Shown here: one piece after another, positions 46,244 through 51,777 of the stretch | Layout: every line of letters starts with the position of its first letter | How positions within the stretch are numbered: position 1 is the stretch's first letter | Notes under the pieces: generated by a model | What the model saw: only the letters and a program-made list of their open reading frames with translations | What the model was told of the DNA's origin: nothing | Database searches by the model: none | Translations under genes and position numbers: made by a program | Source of the DNA: Candidatus Accumulibacter phosphatis | Lineage (GTDB): Bacteria > Pseudomonadota > Gammaproteobacteria > Burkholderiales > Rhodocyclaceae | NCBI RefSeq assembly: GCF_012939955.1 | Contig: NZ_SPMY01000040.1 | Span: 19 to 64,018, forward strand | Direction: 5' to 3' | Length of the DNA: 64,000 bases

Positions 46244-47641
46244 TCAGATCACCTTCGAGTAGCGGGTACGCTGTCGGTCGGCGCGCAGGTAGCGGTCGAA
46301 AACCATCGAAATTGCGCGTACCAGCATCCGTCCTTTCGGGAGAATGGTGATCCAGCGGTCGTCGATGCGCACCAGTCCGGCATCGACCAACTCGTGCAGA
46401 TCTTCGAGCTCGGTGGCGAAATGCCTCTTGAAGTCGATCAGGTGAGCAATTTCAATCGACTCGATGGACAACTCGAAGTGACACATCAGTGACTGAATGA
46501 TCGACCGCCGCAGCAGGTCGTCGGCGTTCAGTTCGATCCCGCGATAGACGGGTAGGGTGCCGCTGTCAAGCAGGTCATAGTACTCGTCGAGGGTCTTCAC
46601 GTTCTGACTGTAGGTCGGTCCGACCTTGCCGATCGACGAGATGCCGAAGGCCAGCAGGTCACAGTCCGAATGCGTCGAATAGCCCTGGAAGTTGCGATGC
46701 AGGCGCCCCTGCCGCTGAGCCGTTGCCAGTTCATCGTCGGGCTTGGCGAAATGGTCCATGCCGATATAGACATAGCCGGCTTCCGTCATCTTGCGGATGG
46801 CCAGTGAAAGAATCTGCAGGCGTGCATCGGCGCTCGGCATATCCACGTCGAGGATGCGCCGTTGCGGCTTGAACAGGCTCGGCAAATGCGCGTAGTTGTA
46901 GATCGATACGCGGTCCGGGCTGGCGGCAATGACTCGGTCCAGCGTGCGGCTGAAGCCGATCACCGTCTGTTTGGGAAGACCGTAGATCAGGTCGACACTG
47001 ATCGACTTGAAGCCGCTGGCGCGCGCTGCGTCCATTACCGCCAGCGTTTCTTCCTCGCTCTGAACACGATTTACGGCCTGCTGGACTGCCGGGTCGAAAT
47101 CCTGGACGCCGACACTCATGCGGTTGAAGCCCAATTCTGCCAGTAGTTCGACGGTTGCGCGATCGACCTTGCGGGGGTCGACTTCGATCGAGTATTCGCC
47201 GTCTTCGATCAACTTGAAGTGCTGGCGTGTGGCCGCCATCAGTTGGCGCATTTCATCGTGCGCGAGGAAGGTCGGCGTACCGCCACCCCAGTGCAGTTGC
47301 GCCACTTCCTGATCGCCCCCTTCGAGATGGCTGCTCTGCAGCGCTAGTTCGCGGGCCAGATACTTCAGGTACTTGGCTGAACGACCATGGTCTTTGGTAA
47401 TGATCTTGTTGCAGGCGCAGTAGTAACAGATGGTGTTGCAGAAGGGAATGTGGAAGTACAATGACAACTGCCGGCTGACGGCACCAATGTTGCGCTTGCC
47501 GAGCCATAGTTGGTATGCATCCGGGCCAAAGGCCTCAACGAAGCGATCCGCTGTCGGGTAGGACGTGTAGCGGGGGCCGTTGATGTCGAAGCGGCGGATG
47601 ATCTGCGGATCAAACACGAGGTTTTCAGCGCCAGCGTTCAT
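46244..47641 (-). CDS. hemN: Oxygen-independent coproporphyrinogen III oxidase, HemN
   Basis: A 465-residue radical SAM enzyme that makes protoporphyrinogen IX without oxygen. The 4Fe-4S motif CNTICYYCAC (CxxxCxxC plus an extra Cys, typical of true HemN) is near residue 63. It also shows YTSYPTADRF, HWGGGTPTFL, SVGVQDFDPAVQQAVNR and GYSTHSDCDLLAFGISSIG. ATG 47641 fits. A Fnr-type box upstream suggests induction under low oxygen. It supplies heme and the siroheme-independent branch; heme d1 is made from uroporphyrinogen by nir genes elsewhere in the window. Confidence 0.94.
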   Translation of the reverse strand: MNAGAENLVFDPQIIRRFDINGPRYTSYPTADRFVEAFGPDAYQLWLGKRNIGAVSRQLSLYFHIPFCNTICYYCACNKIITKDHGRSAKYLKYLARELALQSSHLEGGDQEVAQLHWGGGTPTFLAHDEMRQLMAATRQHFKLIEDGEYSIEVDPRKVDRATVELLAELGFNRMSVGVQDFDPAVQQAVNRVQSEEETLAVMDAARASGFKSISVDLIYGLPKQTVIGFSRTLDRVIAASPDRVSIYNYAHLPSLFKPQRRILDVDMPSADARLQILSLAIRKMTEAGYVYIGMDHFAKPDDELATAQRQGRLHRNFQGYSTHSDCDLLAFGISSIGKVGPTYSQNVKTLDEYYDLLDSGTLPVYRGIELNADDLLRRSIIQSLMCHFELSIESIEIAHLIDFKRHFATELEDLHELVDAGLVRIDDRWITILPKGRMLVRAISMVFDRYLRADRQRTRYSKVI

Positions 47642-47661: not shown

Positions 47662-47710
47662 TGCGTGCATTATCGGATTGCCCTGAAGTAAGCGGGTTGA
47701 CGTGGATCAA
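47662..47710 (-). promoter_or_regulatory. hemN promoter with Fnr-type box
   Basis: TTGACGTGGATCAA (47697-47710) is one mismatch from TTGAT-N4-ATCAA. A -10 hexamer GATAAT reads on the minus strand at 47674-47669. With transcription from about 47662 the box is centred 41.5 bp upstream, the position for class II activation, and the leader is about 21 nt. The same box lies close to the fnr start and could also repress fnr. Confidence 0.7.
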
Positions 47711-47737
47711 ACGCAGAGTTTAGTGAAAAGGATGTCG

Positions 47738-48481
47738 ATGTCGACCAGAGATGCGACCGCGAGACTCGCGTTTGAGGTGGTGAAGACCGCCTGTTCGAAC
47801 TGTAACCTGCGCGAGCTCTGTCTGCCTATCGGCCTCGAGGCGGACGAACTGAAGAAACTCGACGAGTTGGTTTCGACGCGCAGGCGCCTCAAGCGTGGCG
47901 ATTACCTGTACCGTGCGGGTCAAGGCTTCGAGTCGATCTACGCGGTGCGCAGCGGTTTCTTCAAGACCGACGTGCTGATCGAGGACGGTCGCGATCAGGT
48001 CACCGGCTTCCAGATGACCGGCGAGTTGCTCGGCCTGGACGGGATCAGCAGCGAAATGCATACCTGTAACGCCATCGCTCTCGAAGATAGCGAAGTCTGC
48101 GCCATTCCCTTTTCGCATCTCGAAGGTTTGTCGCGGCAAATCCATACCCTGCAGCACCACTTTCACCAGGTGATGAGCCGCGAGATCGTTCGTGATCACG
48201 GGGTGATGATGTTGCTCGGCACCATGCGCGCCGAGGAACGCCTGGCGGCCTTCCTGCTCAACCTTTCGCAGCGCTTCAAGGCGCGTGGCTACTCGCCGGC
48301 CGAATTCAACCTGCGCATGTCGCGTGACGAAATCGGCAGCTATCTCGGCCTCAAACTGGAAACCGTCAGCCGCGCGTTCTCGCGCTTTCAGGACGAAGGC
48401 CTGTTGTCCGTTCACCAGAGAAAGATCCGTATTCTCAACACGTCACGCTTGAAGCAACTGATGTCTCACCAGCGCCTTTGA
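47738..48481 (+). CDS. fnr: Fnr-type transcriptional regulator
   Basis: A 247-residue Crp/Fnr regulator with oxygen-sensing ligands. Cysteines for a 4Fe-4S cluster: ACSNCNLRELC (three) and EMHTCNA (fourth). The cNMP-like domain is about 30-150 and the C-terminal HTH (about 170-230) has MSRDEIGSYLGLKLETVSRAFSRFQDEGL, where ETVSR is the Fnr recognition helix motif. A GTG at 47702 begins inside the Fnr-type box at 47697-47710, so a later start is chosen: ATG 47738 gives MSTRDATARLAFEVVKTAC, with the first Cys at 19 as in E. coli Fnr. ATG 47732 is also possible. It is divergent from hemN. Confidence 0.92.
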   Translation: MSTRDATARLAFEVVKTACSNCNLRELCLPIGLEADELKKLDELVSTRRRLKRGDYLYRAGQGFESIYAVRSGFFKTDVLIEDGRDQVTGFQMTGELLGLDGISSEMHTCNAIALEDSEVCAIPFSHLEGLSRQIHTLQHHFHQVMSREIVRDHGVMMLLGTMRAEERLAAFLLNLSQRFKARGYSPAEFNLRMSRDEIGSYLGLKLETVSRAFSRFQDEGLLSVHQRKIRILNTSRLKQLMSHQRL

Positions 48482-48516
48482 TGCTGCGCAAGAAGGCGCT
48501 TGTGTTGCTTGCTGTT

Positions 48517-48909
48517 TCAAGCGATCCACGCCAGCGGGCCGAGCGCGCTGCGGCTGACGGCGACGGTGACGATGTAGGCAAAGGCCAGTAGCGCGGCGAC
48601 GAAGAAAAACGCCCGCTGCCCTTGGCTGCGCCCGCGCTTCAAGGCCATCGTCCCGCAGCCGATGTAGATCAGCAGGCCGATCAGTTTCGCGGTCAGCCAG
48701 CCGACGGCGAAGGGGTATTGAGCGCTGATCACGGCCATGGCCACGGCACTGGCCAGCAGGACGGTATCGACGATGTGGGGCAGGACTCGTGCCAGCGGTT
48801 GCTGCAGCCGCGGCGACTTGCCGAGCATCCAGAGTCCACGCACGAAGAAGCCGCTACCGCTCAGCACGACGCAGCCGACATGCAGGTATTTCAGCGTCAG
48901 ATAGGTCAT
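48517..48909 (-). CDS. SirB2-family membrane protein
   Basis: A 130-residue protein with four predicted membrane helices of the SirB2/DUF group: KYLHVGCVVLSGSGFFVRGLWML near the start and PFAVGWLTAKLIGLLIYIGCGTMALKRG later. Its ATG at 48909 overlaps the stop of the NnrS-like gene by one base (TAATG), so it is the last gene of that operon. Function is unknown to me; such genes are common in nitrogen-oxide regulons. Confidence 0.8.
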   Translation of the reverse strand: MTYLTLKYLHVGCVVLSGSGFFVRGLWMLGKSPRLQQPLARVLPHIVDTVLLASAVAMAVISAQYPFAVGWLTAKLIGLLIYIGCGTMALKRGRSQGQRAFFFVAALLAFAYIVTVAVSRSALGPLAWIA

Positions 48910-50232
48910 TACCGGGTCTCCGCAGGCGCAGCTGAAACGAGCGTCAGGGTTTCTTCGATAGTCAGTCGCTGTTGGCGGTAGAAGGCGACGGCGGCCAGCA
49001 GGTTGCGCAGCAGCCAGGCATTGGCCACCAACAGCGCCAGTCCAGCCGGATAAGTGAACCACTCAGGCCAGAGCACGGCTGCCAGCAGTAGCGCCAGGGC
49101 GACGAAGTGCGCGTGCATCTGCCGGTTGAGCTGTTGCCCGGCGATGACCTTGTTCATGTTCGGAGGAAGCACTCGCCCGCGGCCGAGATTCTGCAAGTGT
49201 GACCAGACCAGAAAAGGCACGATCTTGTAGAGCATGCCGATCATTACCGACATGAAGCCGCCGAACAGCGCCAGGATGCCGCACAGCAGGGGCCACTCGC
49301 TGCGCTCGCCCAGGGTTGGCCAGCTGCTTGCCGCAAGCCATAGCGCGCAAGCGGCGAGAGTGCTCAGCATCGCCAGGCGCCAAAAGTGTTGCGTGGCATC
49401 GAAACGGGTTCGCTTGCTGCGGCTTTGCAGCTGCAGCGTCAGCGCTGCAAAAGCGGCGACCGCGAGCACCGCCGTTGCCGCGAGCCAGGGCGACAGCCAT
49501 TGCCAGCCAGCGCTATCGGCGACACTCCACAAGATCAGCAGCGCGAGCAGCGTCCACGAAAAACGGCCTGCGAACCACTCCGGGTAGGCTGGCGTCATCT
49601 GGAACATCGGGACGACCACGAAAGCGACGGCAGCCAGCAGGACAACGCTCCAGCCGACGAAGCCCCAACCGAGATGGATCGATGTCAGCTGCAGCAGCGG
49701 CAGTGCCAGCGATCCGTCGATGGCCACGGCCAGGAGCACGCCGAGGCAGACCGTCACCGTCAAGCCGAGCAAGGACAGCTTCAGGCCGCGAATGGTCGCG
49801 TTCGTCGAAGGCACGCCATACAAGGCGTGCCCAGCGCCAGCAATGAACAGCGCGACACCGCCGCCGATCAACACGGCGGCCAGTTCGAACAGCAGCGGCT
49901 GGTAGCTCAGGAAGCCGCTCGCCAAGAGCAGCGCGCCAGTGGCGACTGCCGCGTTAACCAGGGTGGCTAGCAGCTGTGGTCGCGAGATGTTCGCTCCGGC
50001 GACCACCGGAAGAATCTGGAGCATCGCCCCGAGCATCACCTGCAGCATGAAGCCAACGGTGATCAGGTGCGTCAGTGCCAGGGCTGCGCCGGTCCAGCGT
50101 GAGGCGAACAGATCCGGACCACTCCACAGCAGGAGCAGGGCGGCGAGGATGGCAAACAGCGGTGCAGTCAGAAAAAAAACGAAGCGGTGCGGCAAGCGGG
50201 GGAGCCTGGTCGAACGACAGCAGCGCCTGCAT
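48909..50232 (-). CDS. NnrS-like multi-pass membrane protein (one frameshift)
   Basis: A protein of about 440 residues with roughly twelve transmembrane helices. Conserved His segments such as ALALTHLITVGFMLQVMLGAMLQILPV, SIHLGWGFVGW and KIVPFLVWSHLQN place it near NnrS or heme-copper-oxidase subunit I-like proteins of nitric-oxide and denitrification gene sets. Which family it belongs to needs a profile search. The frame is intact from TTG 50195, but an A8 run (50172-50179) hides the real N-terminus. With one base removed it begins MQALLSFDQAPPLAAPLRFFLTAP at ATG 50232, which overlaps the DUF2249 stop as ATGA. It lies between DUF2249 and SirB2 genes. Confidence 0.7.
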
Positions 50233-50459
50233 CAGGGCTCTTGATGTTGGATCAGGACTTCCACCGTGCCGTCGGCTTGGCGCTTGGTCTGCCAGGTGAA
50301 CCCGTTGAGTTCGAGCGCCCTGTACAGCGGGTAAGGCTCTCGCGGCAGGAGTACCAACAGTTTCTCCGACATCGCGAGCTTGTCGAGCGCTTCCATGGTG
50401 CGCACCATCGGTTCCGGTGGCTCCAGGTCGCGGGCATCAAGAACGATAGAGGGTTTCAT
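50232..50459 (-). CDS. DUF2249 domain protein
   Basis: A 75-residue protein of the DUF2249 (TusA-like SirA fold) type: SIVLDARDLEPPEPMVRTMEAL, then LLVLLPREPYPLYRALELNGF and TWQTKRQADGTVEV. These small proteins are often found with denitrification or hemerythrin genes; function is unknown. It lies 21 bp after the hemerythrin gene and overlaps the next gene by four bases, part of one operon. Confidence 0.8.
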   Translation of the reverse strand: MKPSIVLDARDLEPPEPMVRTMEALDKLAMSEKLLVLLPREPYPLYRALELNGFTWQTKRQADGTVEVLIQHQEP

Positions 50460-50480
50460 GGGCGATCGGCTTTATCGGTA

Positions 50481-50942
50481 TCAGGCTGGCGCTTGCACGT
50501 CGCCAGCAAGTTGCTGTTGCAGTTCCGGCAGCAGAGCATCGACTTGGTCAGCCAATTGCTGGTCACACATCGGATACAGGATGTTCTCTTCCTTGACATT
50601 GTGCTGTTGCATCATGATCAACAGGGTCTCGGCGTTGCCGTTGTAGTCGTCGGCATCGCGCTCGGCCAGGGCGGCTTCGGCCGCGGCCAACAGCTGCCGC
50701 ATCTGCACATGCTCGCCGCGCATGACCTGCGTTGGCCCCTGGTACATGCCGGTGCGCTTTTCAAAGAGCGGAAAGAGAATGCTTTCTTCGGCCTCGAAAT
50801 GATTCAGTAGAGCGCCTCGCAAGCGCGGAAATGCGCTTTGCGCCAGTTGCCAGTTCTGGTCGGTCACGGCCTTCTCGACGACCGCCAGAAAATCGTCGCA
50901 AGAGCGATGATCTTTGGTCATCAATTCGCTGATCTCGTGCAT
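50481..50942 (-). CDS. Hemerythrin-domain protein
   Basis: A 153-residue hemerythrin HHE protein with di-iron ligands in TKDHRSCDDF, LLNHFEAEESILFPLFE, RGEHVQMRQL and QQHNVKEENILYPMCDQ. Family members act in repair of iron centres damaged by NO or ROS. ATG 50942 (MHEISELMTKDH) is chosen over the upstream ATG 51008 because that codon lies inside the perfect Fnr-type box at 50998-51011; GAGG lies 8 bp before 50942. It begins an operon with DUF2249, NnrS-like and SirB2 genes. Confidence 0.85.
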   Translation of the reverse strand: MHEISELMTKDHRSCDDFLAVVEKAVTDQNWQLAQSAFPRLRGALLNHFEAEESILFPLFEKRTGMYQGPTQVMRGEHVQMRQLLAAAEAALAERDADDYNGNAETLLIMMQQHNVKEENILYPMCDQQLADQVDALLPELQQQLAGDVQAPA

Positions 50943-50962
50943 GAGGCGCCTCGTAGAGTTAA

Positions 50963-51011
50963 GCTTGCCATTGTCGGCGGCGGCGGCATCGCTAGCGTTG
51001 ATCGACATCAA
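50963..51011 (-). promoter_or_regulatory. Promoter of the hemerythrin operon with a perfect Fnr/Dnr box
   Basis: TTGATCGACATCAA (50998-51011) matches the Fnr/Dnr consensus TTGAT-N4-ATCAA exactly. On the minus strand GACAAT (50975-50970) is a four-of-six -10. Transcription from 50963 would place the box centre at 41.5 bp, class II geometry, with a 21-nt leader to ATG 50942. Confidence 0.75.
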
Positions 51012-51256
51012 ACAATAGTTTTGCAATAGTTTTGAACTGGTCGTGCATTGGCACACGAGCTGATTTTCCCGGGGGCCGGCAACGACGGGTGTCGGCTCGC
51101 AGCAGCAGATTTCCTGGCCGGCGCTTTGACGGCGATAGGGCGGAAAAGTTCTCGGTTTCCCTTGCTCTTGGCTGACTGTATCGCCGAAAGTCTGTTTCGA
51201 TGCCAGGATGTTGACCGTGTCCGGGCATCGATCTGGGCGGAAAGCCGGCCCATCGT

Positions 51257-51305
51257 TTGACTTCCGTCAAAATTGGTGTGACCTTTGTTACCTATAGTCA
51301 ATTGC
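51257..51305 (+). promoter_or_regulatory. uspA promoter with Fnr-type box
   Basis: TTGACTTCCGTCAA (51257-51270) is a symmetric Fnr-like site. TATAGT (51293-51298) is a five-of-six -10. With a start near 51305 the box centre is 41.5 bp upstream, the third occurrence of this spacing in the window. uspA would then be activated by an Fnr/Dnr-type protein. Confidence 0.7.
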
Positions 51306-51333: not shown

Positions 51334-51777
51334 ATGTTCAAGCACATCCTTGTTCCTGCGGATGGATCCGATCTTTCAAAGGCAACGGCCCGGCGCGCGG
51401 TTTCGTTCGCCAAGGAAGCAGGCGCGCGCATTACGGCATTTTTTGCCAAGCCGGAGTACCCTGTCAGCTACTACGGCGAAGGGGCTCTGATCGATCCGAC
51501 GACACCAGAGAAATTCGATGAATTTGCCGAGCAGCAAGCACAACAGGTTCTCGACTTCGTCGTTGATTTGGGCAAGGAGGCTGGCGTCCCGGTTGAAAAG
51601 TTGTCGCTGACCAGTGACATTCCGTACGAGGCGATCATCGATGCGGCGACGCAAGCAGGCTGCGACCTGATCTTCATGGCGTCGCATGGCCGCCGCGGAA
51701 TCAGCGCCTTGTTGCTCGGCAGCGAGACGCACAAGGTGCTCACGCACTCGACCATTCCCGTTCTCGTCTATCGCTGA
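51334..51777 (+). CDS. Universal stress protein, UspA family
   Basis: A 147-residue cytoplasmic Usp with the start MFKHILVPADGSDLSKATARRAVSFA and the ATP-binding signature GRRGISALLLGSETHKVL, so it should belong to the nucleotide-binding subclass. ATG 51334 is preceded by GAGGAAG. The upstream Fnr-type box suggests expression at low oxygen or under NO, as for Usps of other denitrifiers. Confidence 0.9.
   Translation: MFKHILVPADGSDLSKATARRAVSFAKEAGARITAFFAKPEYPVSYYGEGALIDPTTPEKFDEFAEQQAQQVLDFVVDLGKEAGVPVEKLSLTSDIPYEAIIDAATQAGCDLIFMASHGRRGISALLLGSETHKVLTHSTIPVLVYR

Follow-up and report, generated by a model that had tools for sequence, protein, structure and literature searches.

Three promoters in a 64,000-nucleotide stretch of Candidatus Accumulibacter phosphatis DNA (contig NZ_SPMY01000040.1, positions 19 to 64,018 of the forward strand; the whole stretch is hereafter called the window) each carry an exact Fnr-type box, and in all three the box centre lies 29.5 base pairs (bp) from the start of a -10 hexamer, which implies a box at -41.5. 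They precede hemN, a probable operon headed by a hemerythrin gene, and uspA, and an intact fnr gene stands next door to hemN. We consider these, at a probability of about 0.9, to be three sigma-70 promoters that Fnr activates in the class II manner and that form part of a genome-wide Fnr regulon. An earlier note on this DNA, made from the sequence alone, had placed the three boxes exactly at -41.5 of their implied starts and close to fnr, and both observations are borne out, the boxes falling within 3.6 kilobases (kb). Its assignment of the promoters to class II is likewise well supported by the exact spacing, by conservation of the boxes and -10 hexamers across species, and by the recurrence of this geometry at other sites of the genome.

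Promoter geometry and its conservation

The promoter elements are as follows, with implied +1 positions that assume six bases between the -10 hexamer and +1.

47697..47710, minus strand: Fnr box TTGATCCACGTCAA of hemN, centre 47703.5, exact match
47669..47674, minus strand: hemN -10 hexamer GATAAT, implied +1 at 47662
50998..51011, minus strand: Fnr box TTGATGTCGATCAA of the hemerythrin operon, centre 51004.5, exact match
50970..50975, minus strand: hemerythrin operon -10 hexamer GACAAT, implied +1 at 50963
51257..51270, plus strand: Fnr box TTGACTTCCGTCAA of uspA, centre 51263.5, exact match
51293..51298, plus strand: uspA -10 hexamer TATAGT, implied +1 at 51305

Beyond these three boxes, no site in the window matches TTGAY-N4-RTCAA exactly. 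The expected number is 0.10, and none of 100 shuffles reached three. When one mismatch was tolerated the window contained seven boxes versus 3.3 expected, a number reached by 7 of 100 shuffles. The implied leaders measure 21 bases for hemN, 21 for the hemerythrin operon and 29 for uspA.

Conservation was followed in the best 80 of 183 named fnr loci. The closest named matches of the window Fnr are from Candidatus Accumulibacter, at up to 96% identity. The fetched DNA of 79 of the 80 loci contained hemN (the exception being L114), and the hemN box was found in all 79 of these relatives. In 78 of them a -10-like hexamer keeps the same offset; in L081 the hexamer is one base nearer the box. Across the 79 loci the columns of box and -10 hexamer are nearly invariant, and the spacer is mostly variable. 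For hemerythrin, the 37 of 39 matching loci with a match near the N-terminus were counted (partial matches in L062 and L123 were omitted). A box occurred within 160 bp of the gene in 33 of the 37, and the -10 offset was exact in 26/37 and within 1 bp in 32/37. The uspA sample comprised 24 sequences including the window, after five of 28 matching named loci had been dropped because their match fell short of the N-terminus; L062, 52% identical and perhaps a paralogue, was kept. Here a box within 150 bp was present in 17/24, and 16 of those 17 had the exact -10 offset, the hexamer of L075 being one base nearer the box. Farther away, in 20 genomes outside the genus, a box was present in 17 of the fetched fnr stretches and a hemN match in 16; by eye, fewer of these distant fnr neighbourhoods keep the -10 hexamer.

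Several points weigh against an Fnr class II assignment of all three promoters. The starts at 47662, 50963 and 51305 and the binding of Fnr are predictions for this organism, made from sequence. At hemN a second offset of 41.5 bp also gives matches in 19/79 loci, presumably a reflection of base composition. The hemerythrin box is missing in 4/37 loci, the best -10 hexamer is shifted by 1 bp in 6/37, and in L079 the box nearest the gene has no -10 hexamer within 1 bp. At uspA, L063 retains the box with one core base changed, and the box is missing in 7/24 sequences, namely L072 inside the Accumulibacter group and all six loci outside it (L110, L117, L118, L119, L137 and L138); L075 and L079 were placed in the group though titled just Pseudomonadota bacterium. 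Finally, the uspA and hemerythrin genes in the main text of PMC6446978, a 2019 study of Accumulibacter genomes discussed below, were likened to the window genes by name alone.

Judged from these upstream regions and a small sample, Fnr control of uspA looks specific to the Accumulibacter group. The distribution of the uspA box could have arisen by gain in that group or by loss in the others.

Genes around the boxes and their candidate activators

The genes concerned are listed here with their best family matches.

46244..47641, minus strand: hemN, oxygen-independent coproporphyrinogen III oxidase (TIGR00538, 581.4 bits, cut-off 324.95)
47738..48481, plus strand: fnr (NF008365, 246.5 bits, cut-off 228), with cluster cysteines and FNR-type solved relatives
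48517..48909, minus strand: SirB family gene (PF04247, 1.7e-43)
48909..50195, minus strand: membrane-protein-like gene, its 5' part in another frame in this assembly
50232..50459 (ends set by eye), minus strand: DUF2249/TusA-like small protein (PF10006, 9.3e-19)
50481..50942, minus strand: hemerythrin-domain protein of 153 amino acids, first gene of the operon (PF01814, 3.8e-23)
51334..51777, plus strand: universal stress protein gene, uspA (PF00582, 1.4e-30)

The hemerythrin, DUF2249, membrane-protein-like and SirB genes form a probable operon. The membrane-protein-like gene (48909-50195) had no family match in the Pfam and NCBIfam profile search. It is out of frame with its own conserved N-terminal part, the break lying where the plus strand has eight consecutive A (50172-50179). 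All 18 relatives compared have one open frame across this gene, and the break could be an assembly error or real slippage.

The start of fnr is probably the ATG at 47738, which has AAAAGG just upstream and was chosen by eye over the ATG at 47732. Its product passes the cut-off of the Fnr subfamily, and its best solved relatives are FNR-type regulators. In an alignment of 81 sequences (the window and the 80 named loci, numbered from ATG 47738), Cys19, 22, 28 and 121 are invariant, which agrees with the claim in the earlier note that fnr carries all the cluster cysteines; Cys110 is likewise invariant in 81/81. Cys121 aligns with the cysteine of VCEIP in solved FNR, and we take it to be the fourth cluster ligand. 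The recognition helix ETVSR at residues 208-212 fits E-xx-SR, and its glutamate column, the only one counted, is invariant in 81/81. A protein search of the genome with the window Fnr returned one other match, a weak one of 25% identity. The likeliest activator of the three promoters is, in our view, the neighbouring Fnr of the cluster type.

A Dnr-type Crp/Fnr protein that answers nitric oxide (NO) might instead be chiefly responsible for activating the hemerythrin operon, and perhaps hemN, at least in relatives that share the promoters. The box is common to Dnr and to Fnr/Anr. A Dnr-like gene gave matches in 23 of the 24 same-genus genomes searched (in G006 only a short piece), and in G022 the copy spans 230 amino acids as one open frame, its best solved relative being DNR (3dkw, 7.4e-32). 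The hemerythrin protein also has weak matches, far below cut-off, to the iron-sulfur repair proteins YtfE/RIC/DnrN, and passages of PMC1274295 describe, for Burkholderia, a strong DNR site ahead of hemN. The possibility that this genome has no Dnr at all was rejected when a Dnr-like gene was found in it, but in two pieces with frame breaks, so that a working copy is doubtful or the assembly is at fault. Residues 1 to about 76 are in frame near the start of contig C27 (L176, first 700 bases) before the frame changes, and residues 123 to 207 lie on C54, followed by another frame change. The frame of 145 amino acids on the latter contig (L144, C54:130325-130759) matches the C-terminal part of Pseudomonas aeruginosa DNR (3dkw, 5.2e-9). 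Each piece lies next to a copy of a repeated stretch that is also present at the ends of other contigs, and the gene is probably interrupted by a mobile element, or else the assembly is faulty there.

The genome has seven PF13545 matches, six of them over the cut-off. Among those read (L140 to L144, L145 being left out), none of L140 to L143 scores as an Fnr or Dnr type: L140 is nearest to CRP yet below the CRP cut-off, and L141 to L143 weakly resemble other types. Because the Dnr-like gene is in pieces, Fnr and oxygen are favoured over Dnr and NO in this organism, and we hold a leading part for Dnr to be unlikely, though it may have a role in relatives that share the promoters. As a separate observation, L141 and L142 are neighbouring Crp-like regulators on C91 with a common cysteine-containing C-terminal stretch (CCECY, SCGCY).

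Under the favoured reading, in which Fnr is the activator, an Fnr dimer with a [4Fe-4S] cluster would bind each box at -41.5 when oxygen is low, stand in for the -35 element and activate RNA polymerase. Expression of hemN would be switched on, allowing anaerobic heme synthesis, and the probable hemerythrin-DUF2249-membrane protein-SirB operon and uspA would be switched on as well.

Box spacing across the genome

A genome scan for the same box and spacing, similar to the one proposed in the earlier note, was run on the 5.04-megabase assembly (149 contigs), and the DNA around all boxes was scored. The assembly contains 33 exact boxes versus 5 for a reversed control pattern. Hexamers were scored in both orientations at every offset between 7.5 and 92.5 bp, the 33 boxes giving 66 oriented boxes, and a hexamer was called -10-like when it matched plain consensus TATAAT at four or more of six positions. 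At 29.5 bp, 12/66 oriented boxes had a -10-like hexamer; at the other offsets the number averaged 0.79 and reached 4 at most. Removal of the three window promoters left nine boxes at 29.5 bp, whereas the number elsewhere averaged 0.69 and again reached 4 at most. Given this genome-wide peak, class II spacing characterizes the Fnr boxes of this genome as a set, even though the hexamer is missing at 29.5 bp from most oriented boxes (54/66).

Nine of the 12 oriented boxes with class II geometry lie outside the window, and seven of these nine lie ahead of a gene with a role in heme or cytochrome functions or in anaerobic or microaerobic respiration. The genes for ccoN, nirJ, ccmA and uroporphyrinogen-III methyltransferase follow boxes of the same geometry, each scoring over its NCBIfam cut-off. 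Two more boxes are followed by genes whose Pfam matches point to a cytochrome c and to a cytochrome b protein with ferredoxin domains. A napA-like frame, truncated where the fetched DNA ends and hence scoring below cut-off, starts 302 bases downstream of its box, and owing to that distance its link to the box is weak. The remaining two outside boxes (L013 and L024) are repeat copies without a convincing gene.

On several contigs an exact Fnr-like box is followed by GTCCGACAGGCTGCTAG (L013 417-447, L024 386-416 and L026 1273-1303). These stretches resemble the terminus of some repeated or mobile element.

To the earlier note the three promoters, all within 4 kb of fnr, also looked like a local low-oxygen/NO regulon; such a unit would be set apart from other promoters of the genome by closeness to fnr. 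Were boxes placed uniformly, three of 33 would fall within 3.6 kb with a chance of 0.007, which speaks for such a grouping. However, the same geometry is found before ccoN, nirJ, ccmA and others on other contigs, and DUF2249 of the hemerythrin operon was found in the DNA fetched around fnr in 20 of 57 named loci (L082 to L138, some on short contigs), so the neighbourhood is not a general one. As the geometry is genome-wide, with 9/12 such boxes outside the window, the claim of a local regulon is not supported and we rejected it as very improbable. Least credible is a chance meeting of boxes and hexamers: the -10 consensus is loose enough to be matched at four or more of six positions at about 2% of sites in these intergenic regions, but with 0.10 boxes expected, a genome-wide peak at one offset and conservation over 79, 37 and 24 sequences, chance has next to no likelihood and was rejected on the conservation.

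The hemN-fnr box and the described regulon

The centre of the hemN box is 34 bp upstream of the probable fnr start codon. In the relatives, fnr start codons were extrapolated from the window protein, and in the 79 named loci where a box lies on the fnr side its centre was less than 42 bp from the start in 69 and 42 to 78 bp from it in 10; L110 had no box fully within the scanned fnr-side stretch. In most loci the box is therefore too near to fnr, and a class II site for fnr is ruled out by space. The likeliest effect of the box on fnr is occlusion or a road-block. A candidate fnr promoter in which TTGAC of the box serves as the -35 element, followed after 16 bp by TTTAGT (found by eye), was left aside; this -10 hexamer does not have A as its second base and is not constant among relatives.

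The centre of the hemN-fnr box contains CCA in 79/79 named loci. The same centre is found in 4 of the 33 boxes of the genome itself and in 4 of the 17 distant fnr neighbourhoods that have a box. Fnr is not expected to read the centre, and the invariance of CCA thus suggests that a second constraint may act. We tentatively propose, at somewhat short of even odds, that in most of the named relatives fetched the box activates hemN from -41.5 and represses fnr, perhaps under this second constraint. In the heat map of PMC6446978, fnr stands alone in a cluster that the legend groups with the ones raised at high oxygen, a pattern that would agree with repression, short of proof.

Across Accumulibacter genomes, the main text of PMC6446978 gives a predicted FNR motif in front of 165 genes or operons. 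It states that fnr regulates itself and finds hemN, uspA and hemerythrin in transcript clusters that rise in the anaerobic phase. That regulon resembles the one considered here in genus, in FNR motif and in its members hemN, uspA, hemerythrin and fnr. The terms '41.5' and 'class II' do not occur in the main text, supplements aside. In Sphingopyxis granuli TFA, passages of PMC7713065 place Fnr boxes at -41.5 of uspA, -42.5 of hemN2 and -41.5 of ccoN, counted from transcription starts; this organism differs from ours in belonging to another bacterial group and in having two fnr genes. In Pseudomonas aeruginosa, as is predicted here, hemN is under regulators of the Fnr type, and that species has two working regulators whereas the Dnr-like gene here is in pieces. 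Control of hemN by Anr/Dnr in P. aeruginosa was reportedly described by Rompf et al. in 1998.

The three promoters are ordinary members of an already described Fnr regulon in this genus of wastewater bacteria. The present analysis contributes their exact geometry, its conservation, and the candidate switch shared by hemN and fnr. The 29.5-bp geometry also suggests a filter, which 12/66 oriented boxes pass, and, repeat copies aside, the genes behind those boxes suit low-oxygen respiration. For an important wastewater organism, base-level promoter geometry is thereby added to an FNR regulon known from motif searches and transcript patterns.

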